A stretch of DNA of 64,000 nt from Bacteroidetes bacterium 43-16. Its GTDB lineage: Bacteria; Bacteroidota; Bacteroidia; Chitinophagales; Chitinophagaceae. Made by a program: the position numbers and the translations under genes. The number at the start of each line of letters is the position of its first letter. Position 1 is the stretch's first letter. Location: the NCBI GenBank assembly GCA_001897525.1, contig MKTB01000017.1:124001-188000 (forward strand), given 5' to 3'. Shown here in pieces: positions 3,797 through 39,447 of this stretch. The notes beneath the pieces were generated by a model, which was not told where the DNA came from, did no database searches, and saw only the letters and a program-made list of their open reading frames with translations.

Positions 3797-6700
3797 TTAT
3801 TTTTCTTTTACTATTTTGTAAGAAGAACTATGGCCGGTGGCACTGATAATATTGATATTATACACACCTGAGCTTAGGTTTTCCAGGTTGATATCCAATT
3901 GAGTGTTCGCAGCTTTTAATTGCTGTATCAGTCTGCCGGAAGCATCATAGATAGTAATGCTTTCATCGCCTTTCAGGCCCTCAAGCGTTACATGATCTTT
4001 GGCCGGATTCGGGTAGATCAGGATGTTGCCCTCGTTGCCAAATAATACACTGCGAACATTACTGTAGTCAAACCTGCCGTCAACATTAATTTGTTTTAAA
4101 CGGTAGAAATTCAGTGCATTTAAAGGTCTGACATCCGTAAATGTGTACTGCTGCTTGGTGCTGCTGTTGCCATTGGCTGAATGACTGGCTACAAAGCCGG
4201 ATGTAGTCCATGATTTACCGTCTGCGCTTCTTTCGATCTCAAAACCTTTGTTGTTTTGTTCCCTTGCGGTAGACCAGTCCAGTTGTACCGTAGTGCCCTT
4301 TTTAACCGCATCAAAATTTAACAGGCTTACCGGAAGGGCTGAGGAAGTGCTGCTGGCAAAACCAAAGGTAGAGAAGGACCTGATACCTGTGAATTCTACA
4401 TAATCAACACCGTCTTCTTCACCTGTAGCCGATGGATAAATATTGATCGCATTAGAAATGGTCTGACCATTATTAGCAACTACTGTAGCACTTGCATTAC
4501 CCGAATATTTAAACCAGGTTTGCGCTTGCTGATTAGCTACGATTGTATTACGGAGTTCCGCAGAATCAAAGAATATCCTCACTTTAACACCACCATTGGT
4601 CGTATAGTTACCACCGGCAGGTAAGATTTCCAATAAACGGCCCATAATATTACAGGTATTGCCACCCGATGTCACAATATAGGATGTAGGGCTATAAGTA
4701 AGTACTCCATTTACACCACCTGGCTCAATATTACCATTCCAGTTAATAGCAAATGCTTTGCGGGTTTGTGCCGCATCATAATAATAGTATTTCCAGCCTA
4801 CTGCTTTAAGACAGGCAGAGGTGAAGTTAGGAGTTGCATTGGTTTGAGGCAGGTCTACAGTACCGGGTGCAGTCTGGTTTACTTTAGCAAAGGTAAAATA
4901 AGATACACCTGCCGGGAACTTATGATTGACTTCATAATTAGTACCATTAACCGTCAGCACCGCTGCTGTGTCGGCGGCATCAAAAGTATTATCCAGGGAA
5001 TAAACGATCACATATTGAGCACATGCTCCTTGTCCCGGCACAGTGATGCTGCCAACAGAAGCTATCGGGAACTGTATCTTCACGGTTTGTGTCATAGGAT
5101 TATCACCATTGTTTTCCACACGCCAGATACGGGTCATTCTTTTGTTGAGATTAGAGGCCGCAGCATCCCCGTTGTGCGCAAAAGATACGCTGGCAGTAGC
5201 AAGGCTATTCTGGCTGTTATTATCTCCCCATACAAGGAAGCTGTTGTCATTGGCAAATGTATTGGTATTGGAAACATTGTTCGCTGCAATACTTCCGAGG
5301 CCCATCGTCACCTGGTTATTCGGAACTGTGTTCATGCTTTTGCTTTGTTTCTGGGTAAGGGCGCTATTGTCATCGCGGCCAATGCCTGCAACATTGAAAT
5401 GATACGTGCTGCCGCCGGCACCATTCCAGATCACTTTTCCGGTAGAGGAAGTATATTGATAAGTGCCGCTATTTATGCCGCCACCTAAAAGCGTAATACC
5501 GTATTTCAGGCCCAGGTAGCTGTCAATTTTCCTTCTTTCCGGTGAGCCAACAGCATGATTGACACTATAAACAATATTCTCAGCCATATTGCCCTGATAA
5601 TATTCACTACCCAAAGCAGCTCCCGTACTGGGACTCGGCTCCTGGCTAAGCGCGTACCATGTATTTGTAATTGAATTAGAAACGGTTCTGTTTGTAGTAG
5701 AATTCGCATTATAACCGTTATAGCCATACGTATTACTACCTGTTACACCGGTAAAGTCCCAGGTCTGTGAGATCAGGGATTGGGTTAGAGAAGTATTGCT
5801 ATTACCACTAAAAGAGGCTGAAGCATTATTCCCGAAAAGTAAAGATTGACCCTGGTAATAAAGATAATTAGTTGCCGTACTTCCTGTATATAAATAATTA
5901 AAGCCGGGATCATCATCTCCAAAAGAAAATACCTGCTTATTAAAGCCGGTGGTTTCGTCGTTATTCTGAACCGAATAGACAGAGCCGGGCGTAGTGCCGG
6001 TTGCCAGTATATTATTGGCCCTCATCCAGTGAGAAGTTCCATTGAAGGTGATCGCAGGATTAAAGTTGTAGGCATTGCTAACGGTACTCTGTACACCGCC
6101 TTGCAACTGGAGATTGTGGCCGGAGCCGGAAAGGTCATTCCAGGTAGTGGTAGCCCCTGGAGGTGTGCTGGCATTTACCCATAGTGTAAGCCCGCTGGTT
6201 ACGCCACCAGGGCCTGTTTGAAAGGAACCTATGGTTACAAAATCACCATCATTCACTACAACTCCGGTAGCAGATCCACCCGATACCGCGTAAATACGTG
6301 TACTCGCCGGCGTAAAACTGCTGTTGCTGCTGACCATTACATACCTGGCATAATTATAGCCAGTTGTAGCTATATTAAGCGTATAAGCTCCACCGGCAGT
6401 GCCGGCAAGGGTTACCTGTGCATTCCAGATTTTTGATGAGCGCATATTGATAGTGCCTGCCAGGCTGCCATTGGCAAAGGCAGTACCGGCTGCGTAGCTG
6501 TAGGCTGTAGTGCCGGACAGGTTATTATCACCAAGCAATACAGCATCCAGGTCATTAAGTGTACCTGTATTGGCCGCATTAGTAGTGGTCAGGCTGCTTA
6601 AATAGGTACTGATGGAGCCATCAGAAGTCGATTTGGATTGCTTCTGGTACAGGTTAGAACCATTATCCCTGGCAATACCAAAAATATTATTCTGGTAGCC

Positions 6701-7513
6701 GGAGTGACTGCTGCCTGTCCAGATATTAGTACCCGCACTGTTCACATAATTGGGTGATCCGGCCGCATTCAGTGAAAGCCCATATTTAATAGCCAGGTAA
6801 GATTGTACCCTTAGCTTATCGCTGGCGCTGAGCGTGGCGCGGTACATGATCACTTCGCCGATATTCCCATTGAAAGAGCCATTGCCGTAGCCGTCAAACC
6901 CGATAAACAGGTCAGTGCTGCTTAAGGTATTAGTACAGGTAGTGGAAGCCTCCACATTTCCATTGTTCGAGATAGAGACACCGCCGCTGACCCCAAAGCC
7001 GCTGACCAGATAAGGCAGGGTCGTGGAAAAGCCGGATTGTTTGGCTACACCGGTTCCGCCAGATCCATTCCAGTCTCCGGTGGTAAAGCCTACATCGGTG
7101 GTTGGGCTTGAAGTGGCTAATACCCAGCCCGCGGCCCACCCGGAATTGGTGGTTTTGGCCATAAAGGGAGAATAAGCAATATTTCCTGGTAAACCTACAG
7201 CAAAAACAGAGATAGCGCCCCCTAAAGGGTTTAATGCTGTATTGTGTGTAACACGAAAATAATTACTTGTACTAAAGCCGGTAGGTACTGCATTGTAATT
7301 GTACAGGGTCGTATTGGTAATGGTACCGGTTTTTGTTGCATTCCGGGCATTGCCACTGGCATCTGTCCAGGTGGTGCCACCGGTATAGTTCTGGGAGGGG
7401 AGCCAAAGCTGCAGCCCTGCGGAGACACCTCCCGGTGCCTGCGCTTTTGTGCTTGAAAATCCTAAACACAGCGGAATAGATACAAGCAAAACTTGTTTGT
7501 ACATTTGTTTCAT
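3797..7513 (-). CDS. Large secreted protein with two LamG-like modules and T9SS type A sorting domain
   Basis: A 1238-residue exported protein. A signal peptide (residues 1-25, ending TKAQA) is followed by two related modules starting GGVSAGLQLWLPSQ (about residue 28) and GGVTSGLTLWVNAS (about 438). Each contains a concanavalin/LamG-like stretch and a segment of the SYLGLKYGITL type; I recall such modules as DUF8202-like, from memory. A later section includes an LDWSTAREQNNKGFEIERS domain common before sorting signals. The last ~75 residues (IYPNPAKDHVTLEG, YDASGRLIQQL, SGVYNI) form a type A sorting domain, so it is probably moved by T9SS and attached at the surface. Function (adhesin or carbohydrate binding) is not determined. 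Confidence 0.88.
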   Translation of the reverse strand: MKQMYKQVLLVSIPLCLGFSSTKAQAPGGVSAGLQLWLPSQNYTGGTTWTDASGNARNATKTGTITNTTLYNYNAVPTGFSTSNYFRVTHNTALNPLGGAISVFAVGLPGNIAYSPFMAKTTNSGWAAGWVLATSSPTTDVGFTTGDWNGSGGTGVAKQSGFSTTLPYLVSGFGVSGGVSISNNGNVEASTTCTNTLSSTDLFIGFDGYGNGSFNGNIGEVIMYRATLSASDKLRVQSYLAIKYGLSLNAAGSPNYVNSAGTNIWTGSSHSGYQNNIFGIARDNGSNLYQKQSKSTSDGSISTYLSSLTTTNAANTGTLNDLDAVLLGDNNLSGTTAYSYAAGTAFANGSLAGTINMRSSKIWNAQVTLAGTAGGAYTLNIATTGYNYARYVMVSSNSSFTPASTRIYAVSGGSATGVVVNDGDFVTIGSFQTGPGGVTSGLTLWVNASTPPGATTTWNDLSGSGHNLQLQGGVQSTVSNAYNFNPAITFNGTSHWMRANNILATGTTPGSVYSVQNNDETTGFNKQVFSFGDDDPGFNYLYTGSTATNYLYYQGQSLLFGNNASASFSGNSNTSLTQSLISQTWDFTGVTGSNTYGYNGYNANSTTNRTVSNSITNTWYALSQEPSPSTGAALGSEYYQGNMAENIVYSVNHAVGSPERRKIDSYLGLKYGITLLGGGINSGTYQYTSSTGKVIWNGAGGSTYHFNVAGIGRDDNSALTQKQSKSMNTVPNNQVTMGLGSIAANNVSNTNTFANDNSFLVWGDNNSQNSLATASVSFAHNGDAAASNLNKRMTRIWRVENNGDNPMTQTVKIQFPIASVGSITVPGQGACAQYVIVYSLDNTFDAADTAAVLTVNGTNYEVNHKFPAGVSYFTFAKVNQTAPGTVDLPQTNATPNFTSACLKAVGWKYYYYDAAQTRKAFAINWNGNIEPGGVNGVLTYSPTSYIVTSGGNTCNIMGRLLEILPAGGNYTTNGGVKVRIFFDSAELRNTIVANQQAQTWFKYSGNASATVVANNGQTISNAINIYPSATGEEDGVDYVEFTGIRSFSTFGFASSTSSALPVSLLNFDAVKKGTTVQLDWSTAREQNNKGFEIERSADGKSWTTSGFVASHSANGNSSTKQQYTFTDVRPLNALNFYRLKQINVDGRFDYSNVRSVLFGNEGNILIYPNPAKDHVTLEGLKGDESITIYDASGRLIQQLKAANTQLDINLENLSSGVYNINIISATGHSSSYKIVKEK

Positions 7514-22505: not shown

Positions 22506-24422
22506 ATGAAAAAGAGAATTTTACTTTTATCTACCCTGTTGGGCTTAGCTAGCTTAACTTACGCCCAAAAACTGGCGTTGATTGAAGAGTTTTCGGGAGA
22601 GAACTGCGGACCTTGTGCTGCTTATAATCCTGCATTTATGAATTTGGTAAATGCTGCCGGTAATAGTACTAAAGTATTATTGCTGAAGTACCAGTCTCCA
22701 ATCCCTACTCCGGGGCCTATCTATAATATCAATACAGTATTTACGGATGCCCGTATGTCTTATTATTCTGTGAACTCTGCCCCTTCATTCTACTTGAACG
22801 GTGCGTCGAAAGGTAATATTACAAGTGCTACACAGGCTATGTTCAATGCTGCGGCTGCAGAAACTACTCCTTTTACTATGTCTGTAGCCAATCCGGTGTA
22901 CAATGCCAATGGCCAGACTATGTCTGTTACTGTAACCGTTACTGCTACCAGTGCCGTTACTGTTTCTAATGTAAAATTAAGAGTAGCTTTTGCTGAAGAG
23001 TTGAACTATACTACTCCTCCGGGTACCAATGGAGAAACGCATTTCCAGAATGTAGTACGCCAGATGTATCCTAATGCAGCCGGTACTACGCTTGATGCTG
23101 CCTGGACTGCAGGTCAAAGCAGAACCTATACAGTGACAGGTGTGATCCCTGGCTATGTAAACCCTGCTGCCCCGAGCCGTTTCTTTGCTGCATTCCTTCA
23201 AAAAGATGATGCTACTAAAGAAGTACTGCAATCTGCGAAAACAGGTAATGTTACCATTCAACTACCTGCAGCAAACGCAGCCTTGACCAGCATTAATATG
23301 AATGTGGCCGCTTCTAATATGGTATGTACACTGCCATATACACTTAATGCTACTACTAAGCTTAAGAATACCGGTACAGAAGCCCTTACTACTGCAAAAA
23401 TATACTACAAATTAGGTACTGCGAGTGCATGGACAGAGATGAACTGGACCGGCAACCTGGCAGCAGGTCAAAGTGTTGATGTTGCACTTTCTGGTCTTAA
23501 TATTACCTCTTCCGGTATTATTCAGTTGCTTGATTCTGTAGGTTTACCAAATGGTAAAGTTGACTTAGATGATTATGATAATGCTAACGCTGGTTATTAT
23601 TTCCAAATTAATTCCAATGCTGTAGCGCTTCCTGTGGAAAACGACTTTGAAACAGATAAAGCAGATTGGATGATGTATTTCAACGGTAGCAACGGTTACC
23701 CGATGCAGCGTGTTAATAATGGAAGTGGTGCTAGTGTTGGCTACAACTCTGCAACTGCTTTATACTTTAATGCACCAAACATCGGCCCTGGCCCTGTAGG
23801 TTATTTCCTTTTACCAAAAGCAACTTTACCTGCCGGTGCTAAAGCATTAGACTTTTATCAAAGCTATGCCATGAGAACAGGTGCTAATGGCGACAGATTG
23901 GAAGTAGTTTATTCTTCAGATTGTGGTGCTACCTGGACAAGAGTATGGATGTTAGAAGGTCAAGGCCTGGCAACAACTACGCCTACATCAAATACCCAAG
24001 GTCACCTTCCAACTACTGCTACTTATGTAATGCGTTCTGTTGATATGACTGCTGTTCCAGATGGTGCATTGGTCGCTTTCAGAGCTACATCTGGCGGTGG
24101 AAACTTCATGTGGATTGACAATGTGAAATTCCGTACTGGCGCTCCTGTTGCTATTGAAGATCTGATGGATCAAAGCAAATTATCTGTTTTCCCTAACCCT
24201 GTATCTAATAAACTGAACGTTTCTATGTCAATGAAAAGAAACGATAAAGTTACTTTTGCAGTGGTAAATACACTGGGACAAGAGGTATATTCTGTAACTA
24301 AAGATGTTAATTCAGGTAATCAGGTAATTGATATCGATGCCAGCCAATTAGCGGCAGGTATGTATATCCTGAACATCAAAACTGCAGAAGGTGCTGTACA
24401 GCAAAAGTTTACAAAAATGTAA
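22506..24422 (+). CDS. Omp28-type T9SS cargo protein with thioredoxin-like N-terminus
   Basis: A 638-residue exported protein. After a signal peptide (ending TYAQ) comes a thioredoxin-like part with EEFSGENCGPCAAYNP (CGPC at about residues 36-39) and SAPSFYLNG containing the cis-Pro region; this is the Omp28 family layout. A beta-sandwich section follows, then a jelly-roll-like region (from about residue 375, ENDFETDKADWMMYF...MWIDNVKF) like choice-of-anchor domains. A type A sorting domain (VFPNPVSNKLNVSM, NTLGQEVY, AAGMYILNI) ends it. It should be secreted by T9SS and kept at the surface; redox activity is possible because both cysteines are present. Confidence 0.88.
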   Translation: MKKRILLLSTLLGLASLTYAQKLALIEEFSGENCGPCAAYNPAFMNLVNAAGNSTKVLLLKYQSPIPTPGPIYNINTVFTDARMSYYSVNSAPSFYLNGASKGNITSATQAMFNAAAAETTPFTMSVANPVYNANGQTMSVTVTVTATSAVTVSNVKLRVAFAEELNYTTPPGTNGETHFQNVVRQMYPNAAGTTLDAAWTAGQSRTYTVTGVIPGYVNPAAPSRFFAAFLQKDDATKEVLQSAKTGNVTIQLPAANAALTSINMNVAASNMVCTLPYTLNATTKLKNTGTEALTTAKIYYKLGTASAWTEMNWTGNLAAGQSVDVALSGLNITSSGIIQLLDSVGLPNGKVDLDDYDNANAGYYFQINSNAVALPVENDFETDKADWMMYFNGSNGYPMQRVNNGSGASVGYNSATALYFNAPNIGPGPVGYFLLPKATLPAGAKALDFYQSYAMRTGANGDRLEVVYSSDCGATWTRVWMLEGQGLATTTPTSNTQGHLPTTATYVMRSVDMTAVPDGALVAFRATSGGGNFMWIDNVKFRTGAPVAIEDLMDQSKLSVFPNPVSNKLNVSMSMKRNDKVTFAVVNTLGQEVYSVTKDVNSGNQVIDIDASQLAAGMYILNIKTAEGAVQQKFTKM

Positions 24423-24544: not shown

Positions 24545-25282
24545 ATGAAAAAAATATTACTTACTGTATCGATTGGTTTGTTGGGCACTATTGCAGCTTC
24601 TGCACAGAGTTACGAGATCCTGCATGATACAATGATTAAAACTACCTTAGGAACACCGGGTCTTGATCCGACCAATGAAGCTATTTATTTTCACGATTCA
24701 GTGAAGAACGTAACTGCTACAGACCTGGAGAATGTGAAATGGCGTATTATTGAAAGTAATTTACCCCTGGGTTGGTATATATTCACTTTTTGTGACAATG
24801 TATTTTGCAGATCAACTGCAGAAGTGAATAATCACCTGAATAATGCAAACCAGATAGAGACCTTTGCTCCGATCGCTCCGGGAACAAGTGCTTTATTAGA
24901 GCCTTCTGTGGTGGTCCCGCAATCTGCAGATGATGGTACCGGTATCATTAAAGTAAGAGTTTTTACAGATAGTCACACCGATACAGCAGTATTTATAATC
25001 AATAAAACACCGGTTGGGATCAATCAGGTAAAAATGAATGACAGCAGGGTGTCTTTGTTCCCTAATCCATCTATGGGCCAGGACCTGAATGTATTTATCA
25101 ATAAAGAATTGGGTGCAAAATCTATAGCAATTTATAATGTTTTAGGTGCTCAGGTTGCGCAACAGTCCATTACCCGGGAAGTAAGTAATGTAGCCACTGC
25201 TCATTTGGCAAATGGTCATTATTTAGTGAAAGTATTAGATCAAAATGGTCTGGTGATTACTACCAGGAAATGGGTTAAGTAA
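24545..25282 (+). CDS. Small secreted protein with T9SS type A sorting domain
   Basis: A 245-residue protein: signal peptide ending ASAQS, a central beta-sandwich-like domain (about residues 25-150) with two cysteines in FTFCDNVFCRS that could form a disulfide, and a C-terminal type A sorting domain (LFPNPSMGQDLNVF, YNVLGAQVAQQ, ANGHYLVKV). I do not recognise the central domain. It sits between two terminators with its own promoter-like box, so it is probably transcribed alone. Confidence 0.82.
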   Translation: MKKILLTVSIGLLGTIAASAQSYEILHDTMIKTTLGTPGLDPTNEAIYFHDSVKNVTATDLENVKWRIIESNLPLGWYIFTFCDNVFCRSTAEVNNHLNNANQIETFAPIAPGTSALLEPSVVVPQSADDGTGIIKVRVFTDSHTDTAVFIINKTPVGINQVKMNDSRVSLFPNPSMGQDLNVFINKELGAKSIAIYNVLGAQVAQQSITREVSNVATAHLANGHYLVKVLDQNGLVITTRKWVK

Positions 25283-32203: not shown

Positions 32204-32220
32204 ATTTTTAATGAATTGTT

Positions 32221-32276
32221 AATAGGGCTAAAATTGTCTTTAAAATAAAGATAATTTTAGCCCTATTTGATTTTTG
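32221..32276 (+). terminator. Terminator after the DUF2723 gene
   Basis: Arms AATAGGGCTAAAATT (32221-32235) and AATTTTAGCCCTATT (32253-32267), with an inner GTCTTT/AAAGAT extension giving about 21 pairs around a five-base loop, then TGATTTTTG. Beyond it, to 32486, I see only AT-rich leader. Confidence 0.88.
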
Positions 32277-32486
32277 TTAAAATTATTTTAATATTTTTGT
32301 ACTCACTATATTTACCTTTTGAATTAAACATATTATCATTCTGTAAACATTGATTACAGAACGTGAAAGTTTAACATGTCTTTGCTAATCTTGCAGCTGA
32401 TAAACAGCCCTGGTTTTTTTATATAACCGGAGGTTGATTACTCATGCTATCCCCAATCTTCTTTGGCATCTATAAGACTAATTTGA

Positions 32487-35400
32487 ATGAAGAAAAATTT
32501 ACTATTGCTGGTGTTCGCTTTTGGCGTTCTTGTGAACAATTTATGGGCGCAAAAGTTAGAACTAAGTACCAAAACAATCAATGCATGTGCACAAACTACG
32601 GTACAGGTATGTGCTACCGGCTATCAGCCGAATGTGATTACGAGTGCGCAGCAGAATGATTTTTTTACGGGCGTAGTGGACCTTGGGTTCAATTTTAACT
32701 ATTTCGGGCAACAATTCAGTTCGATAGTTATTTCACCCAATAACCTCGTAAGTTTTGACCTGGCCTTGGCAGACCTGTATTCCGAGTGGGAATACGGAAG
32801 CGCGTTGAATACCGGGCAATTGAACAAAGCGATATTGTTCCCGTTCCAGGATTTACATATCGGAGGAACGATCCGTTATAAAATGGTGGGTACTGCTCCC
32901 AACAGGAAATTTGTGGTAGAGTTTTGCCAGGTACCTTTCTATTTCTGCTTGTCCAATACCACTACCAACCAATTGATATTACATGAAACCAGTAATATCA
33001 TTGAGATGCATATAACGTCCAAGCCCTATTGTGCGGGCTGGTCGGGAAGTGCTTTTGCATCTGCAGTGCAAGGGATCAAATCCGGGTCCAATGAAGTTTT
33101 CGTAGCCGGCAGAGGACCCAATGCCGGACCCTGGGCAGTAAGTGCTCCGGAAGGTATGAGGTTTACCCCTAATGGCGGCTCTTATACCGTAAACAGTATT
33201 GGCTATGCTCCTGTAAAGCTGATAGAGCCGGGCAATGGCAACTTTCAGTGGTTTGCAGGCAACAGTACCACACCATTTGCCACTTCTGCCTGTGCGAGCA
33301 TCACTACGAACCAGAATACCAACTATTATGTAGTAAAATATAATGGTACTAATGTAGGCTGTAACCCGAACATTACTGAAATCATAGATACCGTTTATGT
33401 AAACCATGATGAAGTAGTAGAAACAACTACGCTCACTTTCTGCAGAGATCAACTTCCTGCACAATGGAGAGGCATAACCATTCCCAGCACGGCCAATACC
33501 ACCAATAATTATGATTCCGTATGGGTCAATGGCACAAATGGAAGTTGCGATACCAACTTTATCCTGAACCTGGTGGTCAATGATTACCAGCAGGCCCAGT
33601 TTACCCCCGTAGGCACCATCTGCGCAGGATCAACATTCAGCTTACCGGCTACTTCTAATAATGGCATCACCGGGACCTGGTCTCCGGCGGTAAATAATAC
33701 ACAAACCACTACTTATACCTTTACACCATCCCAGGGACAGTGCGGATTACCGGTAACAATGACCGTAAATGTACTGCCCAGCGATACACCGGTTTTTGCC
33801 CAGGTCGACTCCATCTGTGCAGGAGCGGCTTTGGCCCCTTTGCCTACGACCTCGCTCAACGGCATCACGGGTACCTGGTCCCCGGCGATTAATAATAATG
33901 CGACCACCACCTATACCTTTACCCCTAATAACACAGGTACCTGTATTATTAGCCCGACAATGACCATCGTTGTAAAACCTGTTGTGATACCTGAATTTGA
34001 CCAGGTGATGCCGGTTTGTGCAGGCGGTGCATTGAACCCTTTGCCCACGACTTCTTTAAATGGCATTACCGGTAGCTGGTCTCCTGCCATAAATAGTAAC
34101 GTGAGCACTACCTATACCTTTACGCCAGATCAAGGCCAGGGTTGTGTCGGTTCAACCACCATGACCATCAATGTTAATGATACGAATACCGTACCATCCT
34201 TCTGGAATCCGGGCGCTTATTGTGAAGGCTACCAGTTCACCTTACCCAATACCTCTCAAAACGGTATACAAGGTACCTGGTCTCCTGCCTACGATTATTA
34301 TAATACCACTACCTATACCTTTACCCCTGGCCCTGGAGAATGCGGACAGTCTTTTTCAATGACGATTGCCATATATCCTTATGTAGTGCCCGACTTTACA
34401 CAAGTACCACCGGTATGTCTTGGAGGAACGATCAATCCATTACCGACGACTTCCAATAATAATATAACGGGATCCTGGTCACCGGCCCTGAACAATACGG
34501 CAACCACTACCTATACTTTTACACCTTCAACTGCTTATTGTGCCAACCCGGTTACCATGACCATTGTGGTGGACAGCGGTACCTTACCCACTTTTGCCAT
34601 CGTAGATTCAGTATGTGAAGGGTCCACAGTAAGCCCTCTGCCAACGACCTCTACAAACGGTATTGCCGGAACCTGGAGTCCTGCATTCAACAGCAGCACA
34701 CCTACCACTTATACCTTTACACCAGCTTCTCAATGTGCGCCTTCGGTAACACATACCCTGGGTATATCAGCAAGAACAGTACCTGTATTTACCCAGATCA
34801 TTCCCCTGTGTCAGGGTGATGCCTTAAACCCTTTCCCTACTACTTCTTTGAACGGAATAAGCGGTACCTGGTCTCCCGCGCCAAACAATATGGCGACCAC
34901 CACGTATACCTTTACACCGGATACCTCATTCTGTGCTACCACAGCTACAATGACCGTAGTGGTCAACAGCAGCGGTACTTTACCGGTCTTTGATTCATTG
35001 CCTAATATGTGTATCGGTACCATAATGACTCCTTTACCGACCACTTCACTCAACGGTATCACCGGAACATGGTCTCCTGCGCTGAACAATACACAGACAA
35101 CGACCTATACCTTTACACCTGCTGCCAATTCTTGCGGGATACCTACAAGCCTTACTATCATCATAGATACCCTGATGATCCCAACCTTTAACCAGGTTGG
35201 CCCCATCTGCCAGGGATCGACGCTGAACCCCTTACCACTGATCTCTAATAACGGGCTTAAAGGTACCTGGTCCCCGGCTTTGAATAATACACAAACCACT
35301 ACTTATACCTTTACTCCTTTATTTGGCCAATGTGCGGTGCCTACAACCATGACCATTGTGGTGGACACAGCGATTGTACCTACATTTGCTGCCGTAGCAG

Positions 35401-38400
35401 CTATTTGCGAAGGAGCAACATTGAATCCTTTACCTACTACCTCACAGAATGGTATTACCGGTACCTGGTCACCGGCTTTAAACAACGGCACCACGACCAC
35501 CTATACCTTCACCCCAACAGCGGGACAATGTGCGGCCCCTGATACCATGACCATTGTGGTACATCCTAATGTGACACCACTGTTCACCCAGGTAAATGCC
35601 ATCTGTGTGGGCGAGCCTTTGAGTCCCTTACCGACTACATCCAATAATGGGGTTACCGGTACCTGGTCTCCGGCCCTGAACAATACGCAGACCACCACTT
35701 ATACCTTTACCCCGGCAGCCGGTCAATGTGCGCTAAACACCACCATGACCATCAATGTGAATGACGGTACCTTACCTACTTTTACCCAGGTAGCCGCTAT
35801 CTGTGCAGGCAGTAACTTAAATCCATTACCTACCGCATCCAATAACAATATTACCGGAACCTGGTCGCCAGCATTGAATAATACAGCGACCACCACCTAT
35901 ACCTTTACCCCGGCTGCAGGTCAATGTGCCCTGAGCACGACCATGATCATAGTGGTAGATACTAACGTCATCCCGACCTTTACCCAGGTAGCAGCTATCT
36001 GTACCGGGAGCAACTTAAGCCCATTGCCTGCTACGTCAAATAATGGCGTTACGGGTACCTGGTCTCCGGCCTTGAACAATACACAGACCACAACTTATAC
36101 CTTTACACCTACTACAGGTCTTTGTGCGACCACAGCCACAATGACCATAACAGTGGATACCGCTGTGGTACCTACATTTGCTGCAGTAGCTGCGATATGT
36201 GAAGGAGCTGCATTGAATCCATTGCCTGCTACCTCGCAGAATGGTATTACCGGTACCTGGTCGCCTGCATTGAATAACGGTGCAACGACTACTTATACCT
36301 TCACGCCTGCTACCGGTCAATGTGCCACTTCAAACACCCTGACCATAACCGTTAATCCTAATATAGTACCACAATTCACCCAGGTGAGCGCCATTTGTGC
36401 AGGAACAACTTTGAGTCCTTTGCCAACGAACTCTTTGAATAATATTACCGGTACCTGGTCACCGGCCCTGAACAACACCGCCACCACCACTTATACCTTT
36501 ACCCCGGCGGCCGGTCAATGTGCGACCACAACGACCATGATCATCAATGTGAATGACGGTACCTTACCTACCTTTACCCAGGTAGCAGCTATCTGTGCAG
36601 GAGGTACTTTAAATCCATTACCTACCGCATCCAATAACAATATTACCGGTACCTGGTCACCTGCATTGAATAATACAGCGACCACTACCTATACCTTTAC
36701 CCCGGCAGCAGGGCAGTGTGCGCTGAGCACCACCATGACCATCGTGGTGAACCCTAATGTAACACCTACCTTTGCACAAATACCTTCGATCTGTACCGGC
36801 AGCAACTTAAATCCATTGCCGACCACTTCGCAGAATGGTATTACCGGAACCTGGTCACCGGCCTTGAACAATACACAGACCACTACTTATACCTTTACGC
36901 CAACTACAGGCCTGTGTGCGACCACAGCCACAATGACCATAACGGTGGATACAGCCGTGATGCCTACATTTGCTGCAGTAGCGGCTATTTGCCAGGGGGC
37001 TGCATTGAGTCCATTGCCCACTACCTCGCAGAATGGTATTACCGGTACCTGGTCGCCAGCATTGAATAACGGTGCAACCACCACTTATACCTTTACACCT
37101 GCAGCAGGTCAATGTGCGGCCCAGGCTAGCCTTACCATAACCGTTAACCCTAATATCCTGCCAACTTTCACACAGGTAAATCCAATTTGTGCAGGAGCTG
37201 CTTTAAATCCTTTACCCACTACCTCGCAGAATGGTATTACCGGTACCTGGTCACCGGCCCTGAACAACACGGCAACCACCACTTATACCTTTACCCCGGC
37301 AGCAGGTCAATGTGCGACCACAACGACCATGACGATAAATGTGAACAATGGTACTTTACCGACCTTCACCCAGGTAGCAGCTATCTGTGCAGGCGGTACT
37401 TTAAATCCATTGCCCGCCACATCTAACAACAATATCACCGGGACCTGGTCTCCCGCGCTTAATAATGCAGCGACTACCACCTACACCTTTACCCCTGCTG
37501 CAGGACAGTGCGCATTAGGTACCACCATGACCATAGTGGTGAACCCTAATGTAACACCGACCTTTGCACAGGTGCCTTCCATCTGTACCGGCAGTACTTT
37601 AAACCCATTGCCGCTTACTTCACAGAATGGTATTACCGGAACCTGGTCTCCAGCCTTGAACAATACAGCTACGACCACTTATACCTTTACCCCAACTACA
37701 GGACAATGTGCGACCACAACAACGATGACCATAACAGTGGATACGGCTGTTGTACCTACATTTGCCCCGGTAGCGGCTATTTGCCAGGGTGCGGCATTGA
37801 ATCCATTACCTGCTACCTCGCAGAATGGTATTGCAGGAACCTGGTCTCCGGCATTGAATAACAATGCGACCACCACCTATACCTTTACCCCGGCAGCAGG
37901 ATTATGTGCAGCGAGTACAACTTTGACCATTACCGTTACGCCAAACACAGTAGCACAGTTTACCCAGGTAGCACCTATCTGTACCGGCAGTACTTTGAGT
38001 CCATTACCAACCACCTCGCTGAATGGCGTTACAGGTACCTGGTCACCTGCCCTGAACAATACGGCTACGACCACCTATACCTTTACCCCAACCACAGGAA
38101 CCGGCAATTGCTGGTCCGGTGCCACCATGCAGATCGTAGTAAATCCATACCTGACCGGTAACAGGAACGTAAGCATATGTTCCGGCAGCAGCTATACCTT
38201 TAACGGGATCACTTATACCAACTCCGTTACAGGTGTGAAGGACACCATTTCCAACCCTGCAACCTGTGACAGTATCATTACCCTTAACCTGACCGTTAAC
38301 CCTGTGACGACAGGTATCCAAAATGCTACTATCTGTGCCGGAGATACCTATACTTTTAACGGGCAATCCTACAGCACCAGCAATAATACCGCGAAAGACA

Positions 38401-39302
38401 CCTTAGTGAACCATTACGGTTGCGATAGCATTGTTACCCTTAACTTAACCGTGATCCCGGTGAACCCTGTTGCCGATACCCTGAGATTAACAGATTGCGG
38501 AAGCGTAACGTATGCAGGCAATACCTATACCGCCAGTACACATCTTGTTGATACTATATCCAATGCAAATGGTTGTGACAGTATCTACAAACATATCCTG
38601 ATACAAGTCAACCCGGTTTATTCATTTAAAGAAACCGTACACCTTAAAGGATGTAAAGAAGTTACTTACAAAGGAGTGACCTATGGCGCATCTACTGTAT
38701 TTGAAGAAGAGATCAGGACCGCAAACGGATGTGATAGTCTTATTAACACAGTGGTGATAGAAGTCAATGACTTTAAACTGAAAGCATTCACCAATCCGGC
38801 AGAACCGTTTAAAGGAGAGAATGTACATATCCAGACCTATTCTGTGGACAATGTACCTTACTCTATCCTGTCCTGGGAGCCGGCCATACTGTTCCCTAAC
38901 CAGACGGCAAGAGAGCAGAGAGTGGTCTTAGACAACCCGGTAAGGATCGTGATCACCGGGGTACAGGGAGGATGCCAGGATACCGCAATGATCGATATCA
39001 CCGAATTCCCGGGATACTCTAATGAAGTTAAAGTACCGAGTGCCTTTAGCCCGAACGGCGACGGATTGAACGATGTGTTTGCCCCGGTATTAAGGATCGA
39101 TCATGGCTATTCCATAGTTTCCTTTAAAATTTACAGCCGCTACGGAGAACTGGTGCATACCACCAGCAATATGAACTCCGGCTGGGACGGCACCTACAAA
39201 GGCAGACTGCAGGATGCCGGTGTGTACTACTACATGATCAAAATTAAATTCCTGGACGGAACAGAGAAGTTCTTTAAAGGAGATGTCACCTTACTGAAGT
39301 AG
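32487..39302 (+). CDS. Giant 23-module repeat protein with gliding-type (T9SS type B) C-terminus
   Basis: A 2271-residue exported protein. Signal peptide ends LWAQ. Residues ~20-368 form a non-repeat beta-rich head. Residues ~369-1889 are 23 tandem modules of about 66 residues with the pattern PTFTQVAAICAG...LNPLP.TS.NGITGTW, then SPALNNTATTTYTFTP and a Cys near the end, so each module has two cysteines that could pair. Four different modules with CDSI motifs follow (~1890-2100), then a C-terminal domain with VPSAFSPNGDGLNDVF, YSRYGELVH and WDGTYKG, the gliding-associated type B sorting domain. It is probably a long surface fibre or adhesin exported by T9SS. Every module is a multiple of three bases, so copy changes keep the frame. 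Confidence 0.93.
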   Translation: MKKNLLLLVFAFGVLVNNLWAQKLELSTKTINACAQTTVQVCATGYQPNVITSAQQNDFFTGVVDLGFNFNYFGQQFSSIVISPNNLVSFDLALADLYSEWEYGSALNTGQLNKAILFPFQDLHIGGTIRYKMVGTAPNRKFVVEFCQVPFYFCLSNTTTNQLILHETSNIIEMHITSKPYCAGWSGSAFASAVQGIKSGSNEVFVAGRGPNAGPWAVSAPEGMRFTPNGGSYTVNSIGYAPVKLIEPGNGNFQWFAGNSTTPFATSACASITTNQNTNYYVVKYNGTNVGCNPNITEIIDTVYVNHDEVVETTTLTFCRDQLPAQWRGITIPSTANTTNNYDSVWVNGTNGSCDTNFILNLVVNDYQQAQFTPVGTICAGSTFSLPATSNNGITGTWSPAVNNTQTTTYTFTPSQGQCGLPVTMTVNVLPSDTPVFAQVDSICAGAALAPLPTTSLNGITGTWSPAINNNATTTYTFTPNNTGTCIISPTMTIVVKPVVIPEFDQVMPVCAGGALNPLPTTSLNGITGSWSPAINSNVSTTYTFTPDQGQGCVGSTTMTINVNDTNTVPSFWNPGAYCEGYQFTLPNTSQNGIQGTWSPAYDYYNTTTYTFTPGPGECGQSFSMTIAIYPYVVPDFTQVPPVCLGGTINPLPTTSNNNITGSWSPALNNTATTTYTFTPSTAYCANPVTMTIVVDSGTLPTFAIVDSVCEGSTVSPLPTTSTNGIAGTWSPAFNSSTPTTYTFTPASQCAPSVTHTLGISARTVPVFTQIIPLCQGDALNPFPTTSLNGISGTWSPAPNNMATTTYTFTPDTSFCATTATMTVVVNSSGTLPVFDSLPNMCIGTIMTPLPTTSLNGITGTWSPALNNTQTTTYTFTPAANSCGIPTSLTIIIDTLMIPTFNQVGPICQGSTLNPLPLISNNGLKGTWSPALNNTQTTTYTFTPLFGQCAVPTTMTIVVDTAIVPTFAAVAAICEGATLNPLPTTSQNGITGTWSPALNNGTTTTYTFTPTAGQCAAPDTMTIVVHPNVTPLFTQVNAICVGEPLSPLPTTSNNGVTGTWSPALNNTQTTTYTFTPAAGQCALNTTMTINVNDGTLPTFTQVAAICAGSNLNPLPTASNNNITGTWSPALNNTATTTYTFTPAAGQCALSTTMIIVVDTNVIPTFTQVAAICTGSNLSPLPATSNNGVTGTWSPALNNTQTTTYTFTPTTGLCATTATMTITVDTAVVPTFAAVAAICEGAALNPLPATSQNGITGTWSPALNNGATTTYTFTPATGQCATSNTLTITVNPNIVPQFTQVSAICAGTTLSPLPTNSLNNITGTWSPALNNTATTTYTFTPAAGQCATTTTMIINVNDGTLPTFTQVAAICAGGTLNPLPTASNNNITGTWSPALNNTATTTYTFTPAAGQCALSTTMTIVVNPNVTPTFAQIPSICTGSNLNPLPTTSQNGITGTWSPALNNTQTTTYTFTPTTGLCATTATMTITVDTAVMPTFAAVAAICQGAALSPLPTTSQNGITGTWSPALNNGATTTYTFTPAAGQCAAQASLTITVNPNILPTFTQVNPICAGAALNPLPTTSQNGITGTWSPALNNTATTTYTFTPAAGQCATTTTMTINVNNGTLPTFTQVAAICAGGTLNPLPATSNNNITGTWSPALNNAATTTYTFTPAAGQCALGTTMTIVVNPNVTPTFAQVPSICTGSTLNPLPLTSQNGITGTWSPALNNTATTTYTFTPTTGQCATTTTMTITVDTAVVPTFAPVAAICQGAALNPLPATSQNGIAGTWSPALNNNATTTYTFTPAAGLCAASTTLTITVTPNTVAQFTQVAPICTGSTLSPLPTTSLNGVTGTWSPALNNTATTTYTFTPTTGTGNCWSGATMQIVVNPYLTGNRNVSICSGSSYTFNGITYTNSVTGVKDTISNPATCDSIITLNLTVNPVTTGIQNATICAGDTYTFNGQSYSTSNNTAKDTLVNHYGCDSIVTLNLTVIPVNPVADTLRLTDCGSVTYAGNTYTASTHLVDTISNANGCDSIYKHILIQVNPVYSFKETVHLKGCKEVTYKGVTYGASTVFEEEIRTANGCDSLINTVVIEVNDFKLKAFTNPAEPFKGENVHIQTYSVDNVPYSILSWEPAILFPNQTAREQRVVLDNPVRIVITGVQGGCQDTAMIDITEFPGYSNEVKVPSAFSPNGDGLNDVFAPVLRIDHGYSIVSFKIYSRYGELVHTTSNMNSGWDGTYKGRLQDAGVYYYMIKIKFLDGTEKFFKGDVTLLK
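33591..38153 (+). repeat. 23 tandem ~198-bp coding repeats
   Basis: Twenty-three modules, nearly all 198 bp (66 codons), counted by the recurring ICAG, GTWSPA and TTTYTFTP segments. The first eight modules are divergent and vary by one or two codons; those from 35181 on are strictly 198 bp. The same words recur at DNA level (GGTACCTGGTC, ACCTATACCTTTACCCC), so this block is prone to misassembly and to unequal recombination. Confidence 0.95.
35181..38153 (+). repeat. Higher-order repeat: four-module 792-bp unit, 3.75 copies
   Basis: Modules fall into four types in fixed order A-B-C-D. B modules (start PTFAAVAAIC or PTFAPVAAIC) begin at 35379, 36171, 36963 and 37755, each exactly 792 bp apart. 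A begins at 35181, 35973, 36765 and 37557; C (the first three ending NVN.GTL) at 35577, 36369, 37161 and 37953; D (AASNNNITG-like, QCAL) at 35775, 36567 and 37359. The fourth unit lacks D. Modules of the same type in different units are more alike than neighbours. Confidence 0.9.
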
Positions 39303-39324
39303 AACTTACAGTTGTGAAGCACGG

Positions 39325-39356
39325 GCGCCGGTATAGATTACCGGCGCTCTTTTTTA
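39325..39356 (+). terminator. Terminator of the giant gene
   Basis: Perfect 9-bp arms GCGCCGGTA (39325-39333) and TACCGGCGC (39339-39347), then TCTTTTTTAT. Confidence 0.9.
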
Positions 39357-39439
39357 TACAAATGACCGGGGTTTTCAAATTCTGTTACAATTATGACAAT
39401 ATTAGATTCGGCCCTGAGCGTTAATCGGGGAAATAGCTG

Positions 39440-39447
39440 TACTTTTG
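39440..39447 (+). promoter_or_regulatory. Predicted -7 box of ribBA
   Basis: TACTTTTG fits TAnnTTTG and lies 27 bases before ATG 39475. It overlaps an in-frame TTG at 39445, which is therefore unlikely to be the start. Confidence 0.62.

Follow-up and report, generated by a model that had tools for sequence, protein, structure and literature searches.

The gene and its four-module period

We describe here a giant gene in a 64,000-nucleotide stretch of Bacteroidetes bacterium 43-16 (assembly GCA_001897525.1, contig MKTB01000017.1, positions 124,001 to 188,000 of the forward strand), which we call the window. Its product is a predicted surface protein of the type IX secretion system (T9SS). It contains 23 modules, each of 65-67 amino acids, spanning 33591-38150, and modules 10-22 follow one another as four types in a fixed order. 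The features of the gene, numbered by window position, are as follows.

32487..39302 (+): giant T9SS surface protein gene, 2271 amino acids, a single open frame (translation of the open reading frame)
32547..33590 (+): N-terminal non-repeat part, residues 21-368, after a presumed signal peptide
33591..35378 (+): modules 1-9, older and diverged, without four-module phase
35379..37952 (+): higher-order array, modules 10-22 in the order BCDA BCDA BCDA B, with a 792-bp block
35379..35576 (module 10), 36171-36368, 36963-37160 and 37755-37952 (+): type B modules
35577..35774 (module 11), 36369-36566 and 37161-37358 (+): type C modules
35775..35972 (module 12), 36567-36764 and 37359-37556 (+): type D modules
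35973..36170 (module 13), 36765-36962 and 37557-37754 (+): type A modules
37953..38150 (+): module 23, the C-terminal end module, out of phase
39030..39269 (+): CHU_C / type B T9SS sorting domain, residues 2182-2261 (PF13585, TIGR04131)

The four-module period was observed directly in the DNA. Over 35181-38153, self-identity is 0.789 at a lag of 792 bp and 0.737 at 1584 bp, while the other ten multiples of 198 bp up to 2376 give 0.636-0.678 (2376, three blocks, gives 0.668). The signal sets in at about 35350 and fades near 37950. Each of the 13 modules from 10 to 22 is most similar in DNA to a module four places along, modules 10 and 11 tying with the module eight further on. Mean DNA identity within this set is 0.802 for same-phase pairs (n = 15) and 0.681 for other pairs (n = 63), a difference reached by none of 20,000 permutations of module order. 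Exact runs of at least 20 bp number 19 at lag 792, the longest of 41 bp, against 5, 3 and 7 at lags 198, 396 and 594. In a tree of the 13 modules the four phase labels require three changes, which is the minimum. Third codon positions taken alone give 0.606 for same-phase pairs and 0.454 for the others, again reached by 0 of 20,000 permutations. Since third positions show the same period, the likeness of same-phase modules is a matter of descent, and convergence is not its main cause.

A preliminary description of this DNA had proposed that a block of four modules was duplicated in tandem, over an older and more divergent set of modules, and the best matches, the exact runs and the permutations support this. 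The 792-bp spacing that the description gave for the B modules was verified (starts at 35379, 36171, 36963 and 37755), as was its reading by eye of the proteins: D modules 16 and 20 differ at 4 of 66 residues (94% identical) and neighbours 15 and 16 at 14 (79%). Neighbouring modules, whose clustering in a tree would have spoken against the proposal, do not cluster. The description had also extended the ABCD order over the whole of 35181-38153. This stands for modules 10-22, and at the DNA level the two end modules are not clearly in phase. Module 9 (35181-35378), taken for an A module, has a DNA identity of 63-67% with the A modules (70-77% in protein), which is no higher than with some other modules, and module 23 resembles several phases to about the same degree.

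Amplification of the four-module block is old, not recent. By the Nei-Gojobori method (NG86), nonsynonymous (dN) and synonymous (dS) divergence between blocks is 0.07-0.11 and 0.60-0.93, with dN/dS of about 0.11-0.15. DNA identity is 79-84% between blocks and at most 87% between modules of the array. By these dS values none of the blocks is recent. Exact repeats in the array reach only 41 bp, the longest lying at lag 792, and a present-day length switch is therefore unsupported. This shortness also makes it unlikely that the count of 23 modules is an assembly error, and recombination in the array should now be rare. The in-frame length variation of the earlier description thus finds no support as an ongoing process; a difference in module number is probable between species, with 23 here and at least 17 in the sister gene described below.

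The same description had called the product a T9SS protein, and the C-terminal sorting domain bears this out (PF13585, E value 5.7e-15; TIGR04131, 1.2e-14; both above cut-off). Because of this domain we assign the protein to the type B cargo, as which its display at the cell surface is predicted. The genome encodes the translocon (SprA_N, E 5.9e-156), which none of 14 control genomes matches. It holds 56 matches to the giant protein, itself included, many of them to the C-terminal part alone. No Pfam model covers the module at cut-off, matches to NUP210 Ig-like and DUF6265 lying below theirs. For the N-terminal part the window's own row matched no Pfam family at E <= 1; a weak Ig_7 match (E 0.033) appeared in one of five rows, and a structure model failed, with a predicted local distance difference test (pLDDT) of 33.9. 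Anchoring of type B cargo to PorP-like proteins is described as possible (PMC9143113). Among the 20 window proteins scanned, none belonged to a PorP/SprF-like family (E <= 1e-5), the rest of the genome not having been searched. The window also encodes three other predicted T9SS cargo proteins, with Por_Secre_tail, at 3797-7513 (-), 22506-24422 (+) and 24545-25282 (+).

The sister gene and related arrays

Further information about the age of the types was obtained from genome G004, which we take to be Taibaiella sp. MAG-390 (JAEUVV010000010.1), in a comparison covering one genome per species. The N-terminal part was compared with five genomes of the genus, counting that of the window. Besides the window's genome, G004 alone has a close match (84% identity); those that follow, at 49% or less, were taken as paralogues. 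The G004 gene is split across two contig ends that overlap by exactly 138 bp. One contig carries 12 whole modules of its array and part of another, and the second contig carries 5, giving at least 17 in an incomplete count. Modules 1-9 are each best matched by the G004 module in the same place (66-78% DNA identity) and module 23 by the last G004 module (81%). In a tree of 40 modules from both genes, with one partial G004 module left out, the G004 modules group with types B, C, D and, weakly, A. Modules 1-9 pair there with their G004 counterparts, as do modules 10, 22 and 23, with support of 87/77, 90/85 and 100/99. To G004, dS is 1.28-1.87 for the CDAB blocks, 1.65 for the N-terminal and 1.88 for the C-terminal part. 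The excess over the between-block values (0.60-0.93), together with the tree, suggests that the four types already existed when the two species separated and that the block multiplied afterwards, in the middle of the array, its ends remaining one-to-one. One G004 module was considered as a C/A hybrid, the scar of a deletion. Its thirds show no clear switch at the DNA level, so this was rejected and the module is called A-like or mixed.

In the window (32204-39444) and in G004 alike, the giant gene is flanked by a TMEM260-like gene and ribBA. In three other genomes of the genus (G001-G003) the matched stretches of these two genes are 156-170 bp apart, which leaves no room for such a gene there. 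The presence of this 6.8-kb gene between TMEM260-like gene and ribBA thus reflects a lineage-specific gain or loss. Terminator-like hairpins stand on both sides of it; a regional scan found 8 such sites against a shuffle mean of 6.7, which is no excess.

32221..32267 (+): terminator-like hairpin, 3' of the upstream TMEM260-like gene
39323..39349 (+): terminator-like hairpin, 3' of the giant gene, 11 pairs (8 G-C) followed by a T run

With the block as query, 51 of 394 genomes of the family match at E <= 1e-20. We analysed stretches from 36 of these 51 and compared 43 arrays of at least seven modules, the window's included, using raw p values. A global test for a period is passed by the window array only (0 of 2000 shuffles; next best p 0.077). 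A nearest-neighbour test gives p < 0.01 in 8 of the 43 arrays, six of them with a lag of 3 or 4: the lag is 4 in the window and L095, 3 in L120, L040, L112 and L117, and 1 in L048 and L099. At third positions seven arrays reach p < 0.05, where about two are expected by chance, and L102, at lag 2, is also at 0 of 2000. The window array is therefore the clearest four-module case among the 43, and other block sizes occur. As block similarity recurs with other sizes, the number four is not dictated by the fold.

One relative, in G002 (L044:4644-14102), has 38 modules in 3153 amino acids, and its modules 10/18 and 11/19 are 99-100% identical. It contains an exact repeat of 328 bp, eight modules apart, from which we infer that exchange has been recent in some relatives. 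Contigs end or are padded with N inside the arrays of L038, L039, L041, L049, L050, L098, L099 and L102, and draft genomes will thus often yield too low a number of modules.

A second family of genes, found among L103-L132, is defined by a C-terminal tail 56-100% identical to that of L104 and has units mostly of 69 amino acids (mostly 67 in L119). Its genes carry 5, 7, 9, 10, 11, 12, 14 or 17 modules, mostly 11, 14 or 17. The number fits 3n+2 in 20 of 24 genes kept, the misfits having 12, about 10, 9 and 7; these 24 were picked after viewing a table of 30 rows. L130, L101 and L113 were dropped because their modules were few or interrupted or their tail identity was low, and L095-L097 for units of 66 amino acids (14, 10 and 13 modules); with the latter three included, the fit is 21 of 27. 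Hidden Markov model and motif counts differ for L112 (18/17), L120 (15/14), L129 (12/11) and L125 (10/9), for which the number nearest the array length was used, and the motif alone missed one to three modules in L124, L118, L122 and L111. We treat the 3n+2 pattern as a lead. Steps of three as proof of block gain or loss were rejected: a tree of the tails requires at least 12 changes of module number, four genes misfit, and sisters with 11 and 14 modules show no clean loss of a three-module block. In several genes of this family the longest exact repeat lies three modules apart. The near sisters L105 and L128, with 11 and 14 modules, match one-to-one at 87-91% in their first four and last two modules, and the interior modules of L105 are more like each other.

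Junctions and the origin of the blocks

The amino acids that tell the types apart are found mainly where one module meets the next. We defined the junction as residues 58-66 and 1-13; of the 33 variable amino-acid columns in modules 10-22, 15 fall in it and 18 in the core. Same-phase minus other-phase amino-acid identity is 0.370 at the junction and 0.165 in the core, a contrast reached by 55 of 20,000 column shuffles. Six G004 modules keep these residues by type: at junction columns their identity is 0.50-0.76 to modules of the same type, against 0.18-0.51 to the other types, while in core columns the own type is best in four of the six, by small margins.

An AlphaFold model of modules 14-17 (window 36171-36962), made from 29 rows of the window and L061, consists of repeated short beta domains with a pLDDT of 93.1. 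Each module has cysteines at its positions 10 and 51, invariant across the 29 rows, which likely form a disulphide. The array is probably a surface rod.

We consider it probable that the present array arose as follows. It would be the stalk of a T9SS-exported surface protein, a string of small beta domains each with its conserved cysteine pair. An ancestral array of single modules would already have contained four distinguishable types in the order B-C-D-A-B. After the split from the sister species, unequal recombination between mispaired gene copies would have duplicated a block of four modules about twice, in mid-array, both ends staying fixed. A shift of 792 bp pairs like modules and would leave all junctions intact, which a shift of 198 bp would not; the phase would be kept because the module types differ at their junctions. 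Of this account, the period and its ancestry, the relative dates, the conservation of the ends and the phase specificity of the junctions are shown; the recombination route, the number of events, the rod shape, the surface display and selection on the junctions are our interpretation.

Several observations weigh against this account. Only one of the 20 inner branches of the 13-module tree has strong support and type A is not one clade, which we attribute to the shortness of the modules (198 bp); most branches of the 40-module tree are also without strong support. Values of dS of 1.3-1.9 are near saturation, and none could be computed for module 10. As the G004 array is incomplete, we only infer the direction of change. 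The predicted template modelling score (pTM) of the four-module model is 0.55, so its module-to-module geometry is unreliable. Third positions, too, lean toward the junction, with a phase signal of 0.173 against 0.142 in the core over all columns, and of 0.265 (3 junction columns) against 0.080 (19 core columns) at invariant residues. For this reason the junction effect may owe something to exchange of cores between types and not to selection on the protein. Moreover, gene conversion could yield the same pattern without new duplications.

This last idea can be put more strongly: in an old single array, conversion between every fourth module would have produced the period with no block duplication after the split. 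The patchiness of lag-792 identity (0.59-0.95 in 66-bp bins) would agree with it, as would the interiors of related arrays, which look homogenised within species. Conversion would need to be restricted to multiples of four, lags of one to three modules showing no excess, and the known part of the G004 array, itself incomplete, has fewer C, D and A modules; we find this improbable. Somewhat better placed, though still unlikely in our judgement, is a period of four that represents a selected structural register, set by facing or by a partner, which duplication supplied and selection kept, as proposed for titin. Phase identity concentrated at junctions and kept by type in G004 speaks for such a register, the low dN/dS between blocks agrees with it, and position-specific linkers are described in the titin A-band (PMC10665226). 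Yet the related arrays have blocks of three or four, single-module similarity or no period, so the fold does not require four, and the junction lean of third positions also counts against it.

Slightly less credible than conversion is a stalk of the Periscope type, in which frequent gain and loss of in-frame blocks would tune how far the tip projects. Every unit is indeed in frame, module number probably differs between the two species, and in the second family the near sisters G411 (14 modules) and G306 (11 modules) agree at their ends. Isolates of Flavobacterium psychrophilum are reported to differ in the repetitive motifs of a gliding motility-associated protein (PMC8400371). However, in Periscope Proteins the most extreme length variation is described as accompanying the highest repeat identity (PMC8201768), whereas our blocks are just 79-84% identical, share no exact repeat beyond 41 bp and, from their dS, include no recent one. 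Convergence by selection alone, with no shared ancestry, could draw on the amino-acid signal at the junctions; we hold it refuted by the period at third codon positions. Returning to block duplication, it is tempting to propose that the junctions act as an address code, linker-defined types locking the phase of recombination so that rods of the family change by whole register-preserving blocks, of four here and perhaps of three in the second family. We regard this extension as doubtful, on a level with the conversion account.

Comparison with known systems

In its sorting domain (CHU_C / TIGR04131) the giant protein resembles T9SS type B cargo such as SprB. The best fold match of the predicted four-module model is GhpA, the grappling hook protein A of Aureispira sp., fragments of which are the top four and six of the seven best Foldseek matches (E 1.3e-6 at best). 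By VIA the best match has a Z of 8.0 with a root-mean-square deviation of 6.6 over 253 residues, a Z that can reflect a common arrangement and that comes from a model with a pTM of 0.55. The likeness does not extend to sequence: PDB searches gave no match, at E <= 10 for the block and at E <= 1 for both the block profile and the whole protein, and no similarity to GhpA was detected.

Periscope Proteins (SHIRT, Rib and SasG stalks) carry folded domains in tandem, with a distal part at the N-terminus and an anchor at the C-terminus, a plan that the giant protein, its domains modelled with a pLDDT of 93.1 but a pTM of 0.55, would share; such length-variable stalks are described as resting on highly similar DNA repeats (PMC8201768). 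Our repeats are less alike (at most 87%), and the probable difference in module number is one between species. An account of BACON domain arrays in phages adds nothing further for the present array (PMC6949934). Our literature search on higher-order repeats in bacterial adhesins and tandem protein repeats returned no related case, which is not proof of absence from print.

A further parallel is the muscle protein titin, which is eukaryotic and has longer units, of 11 domains in the C-zone, built of two fold types. Its D-zone unit has seven domains. The array described here is bacterial, with a unit of four modules, a single fold and no known template. In the A-band super-repeats of titin (immunoglobulin and fibronectin type III domains), domains in the same place are described as more alike, most clearly in the centre, and the position-specific linkers (PMC10665226) recall our phase-carrying junctions, where third positions lean the same way. 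Growth of domain repeats is described as proceeding mostly in steps of several domains and often in the middle, nebulin having seven-domain units, and our array, with its multi-module duplication in the middle, is of that kind; the same survey found repeats far commoner in eukaryotes than in prokaryotes (PMC1553488). Expansion in the middle with conserved ends, a feature of super-repeats, is seen here in modules 1-10, 22 and 23, which pair with G004, the middle of the G004 array being incomplete.

In summary, our results provide a clean bacterial case of super-repeat evolution, in which a syntenic sister gene allows dating, and they separate block duplication as history, which is shown, from length variation as function, which is not. 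If it is true that junction identity locks the phase, the length of a surface rod would change in blocks set by protein structure. Because domain repeats have been described as growing several domains at once, often in mid-array (PMC1553488), we count the process as known, that of super-repeat duplication of the titin and nebulin kind; the array, whose unit is so clean and which belongs to a bacterial surface protein, adds a good new example of it.

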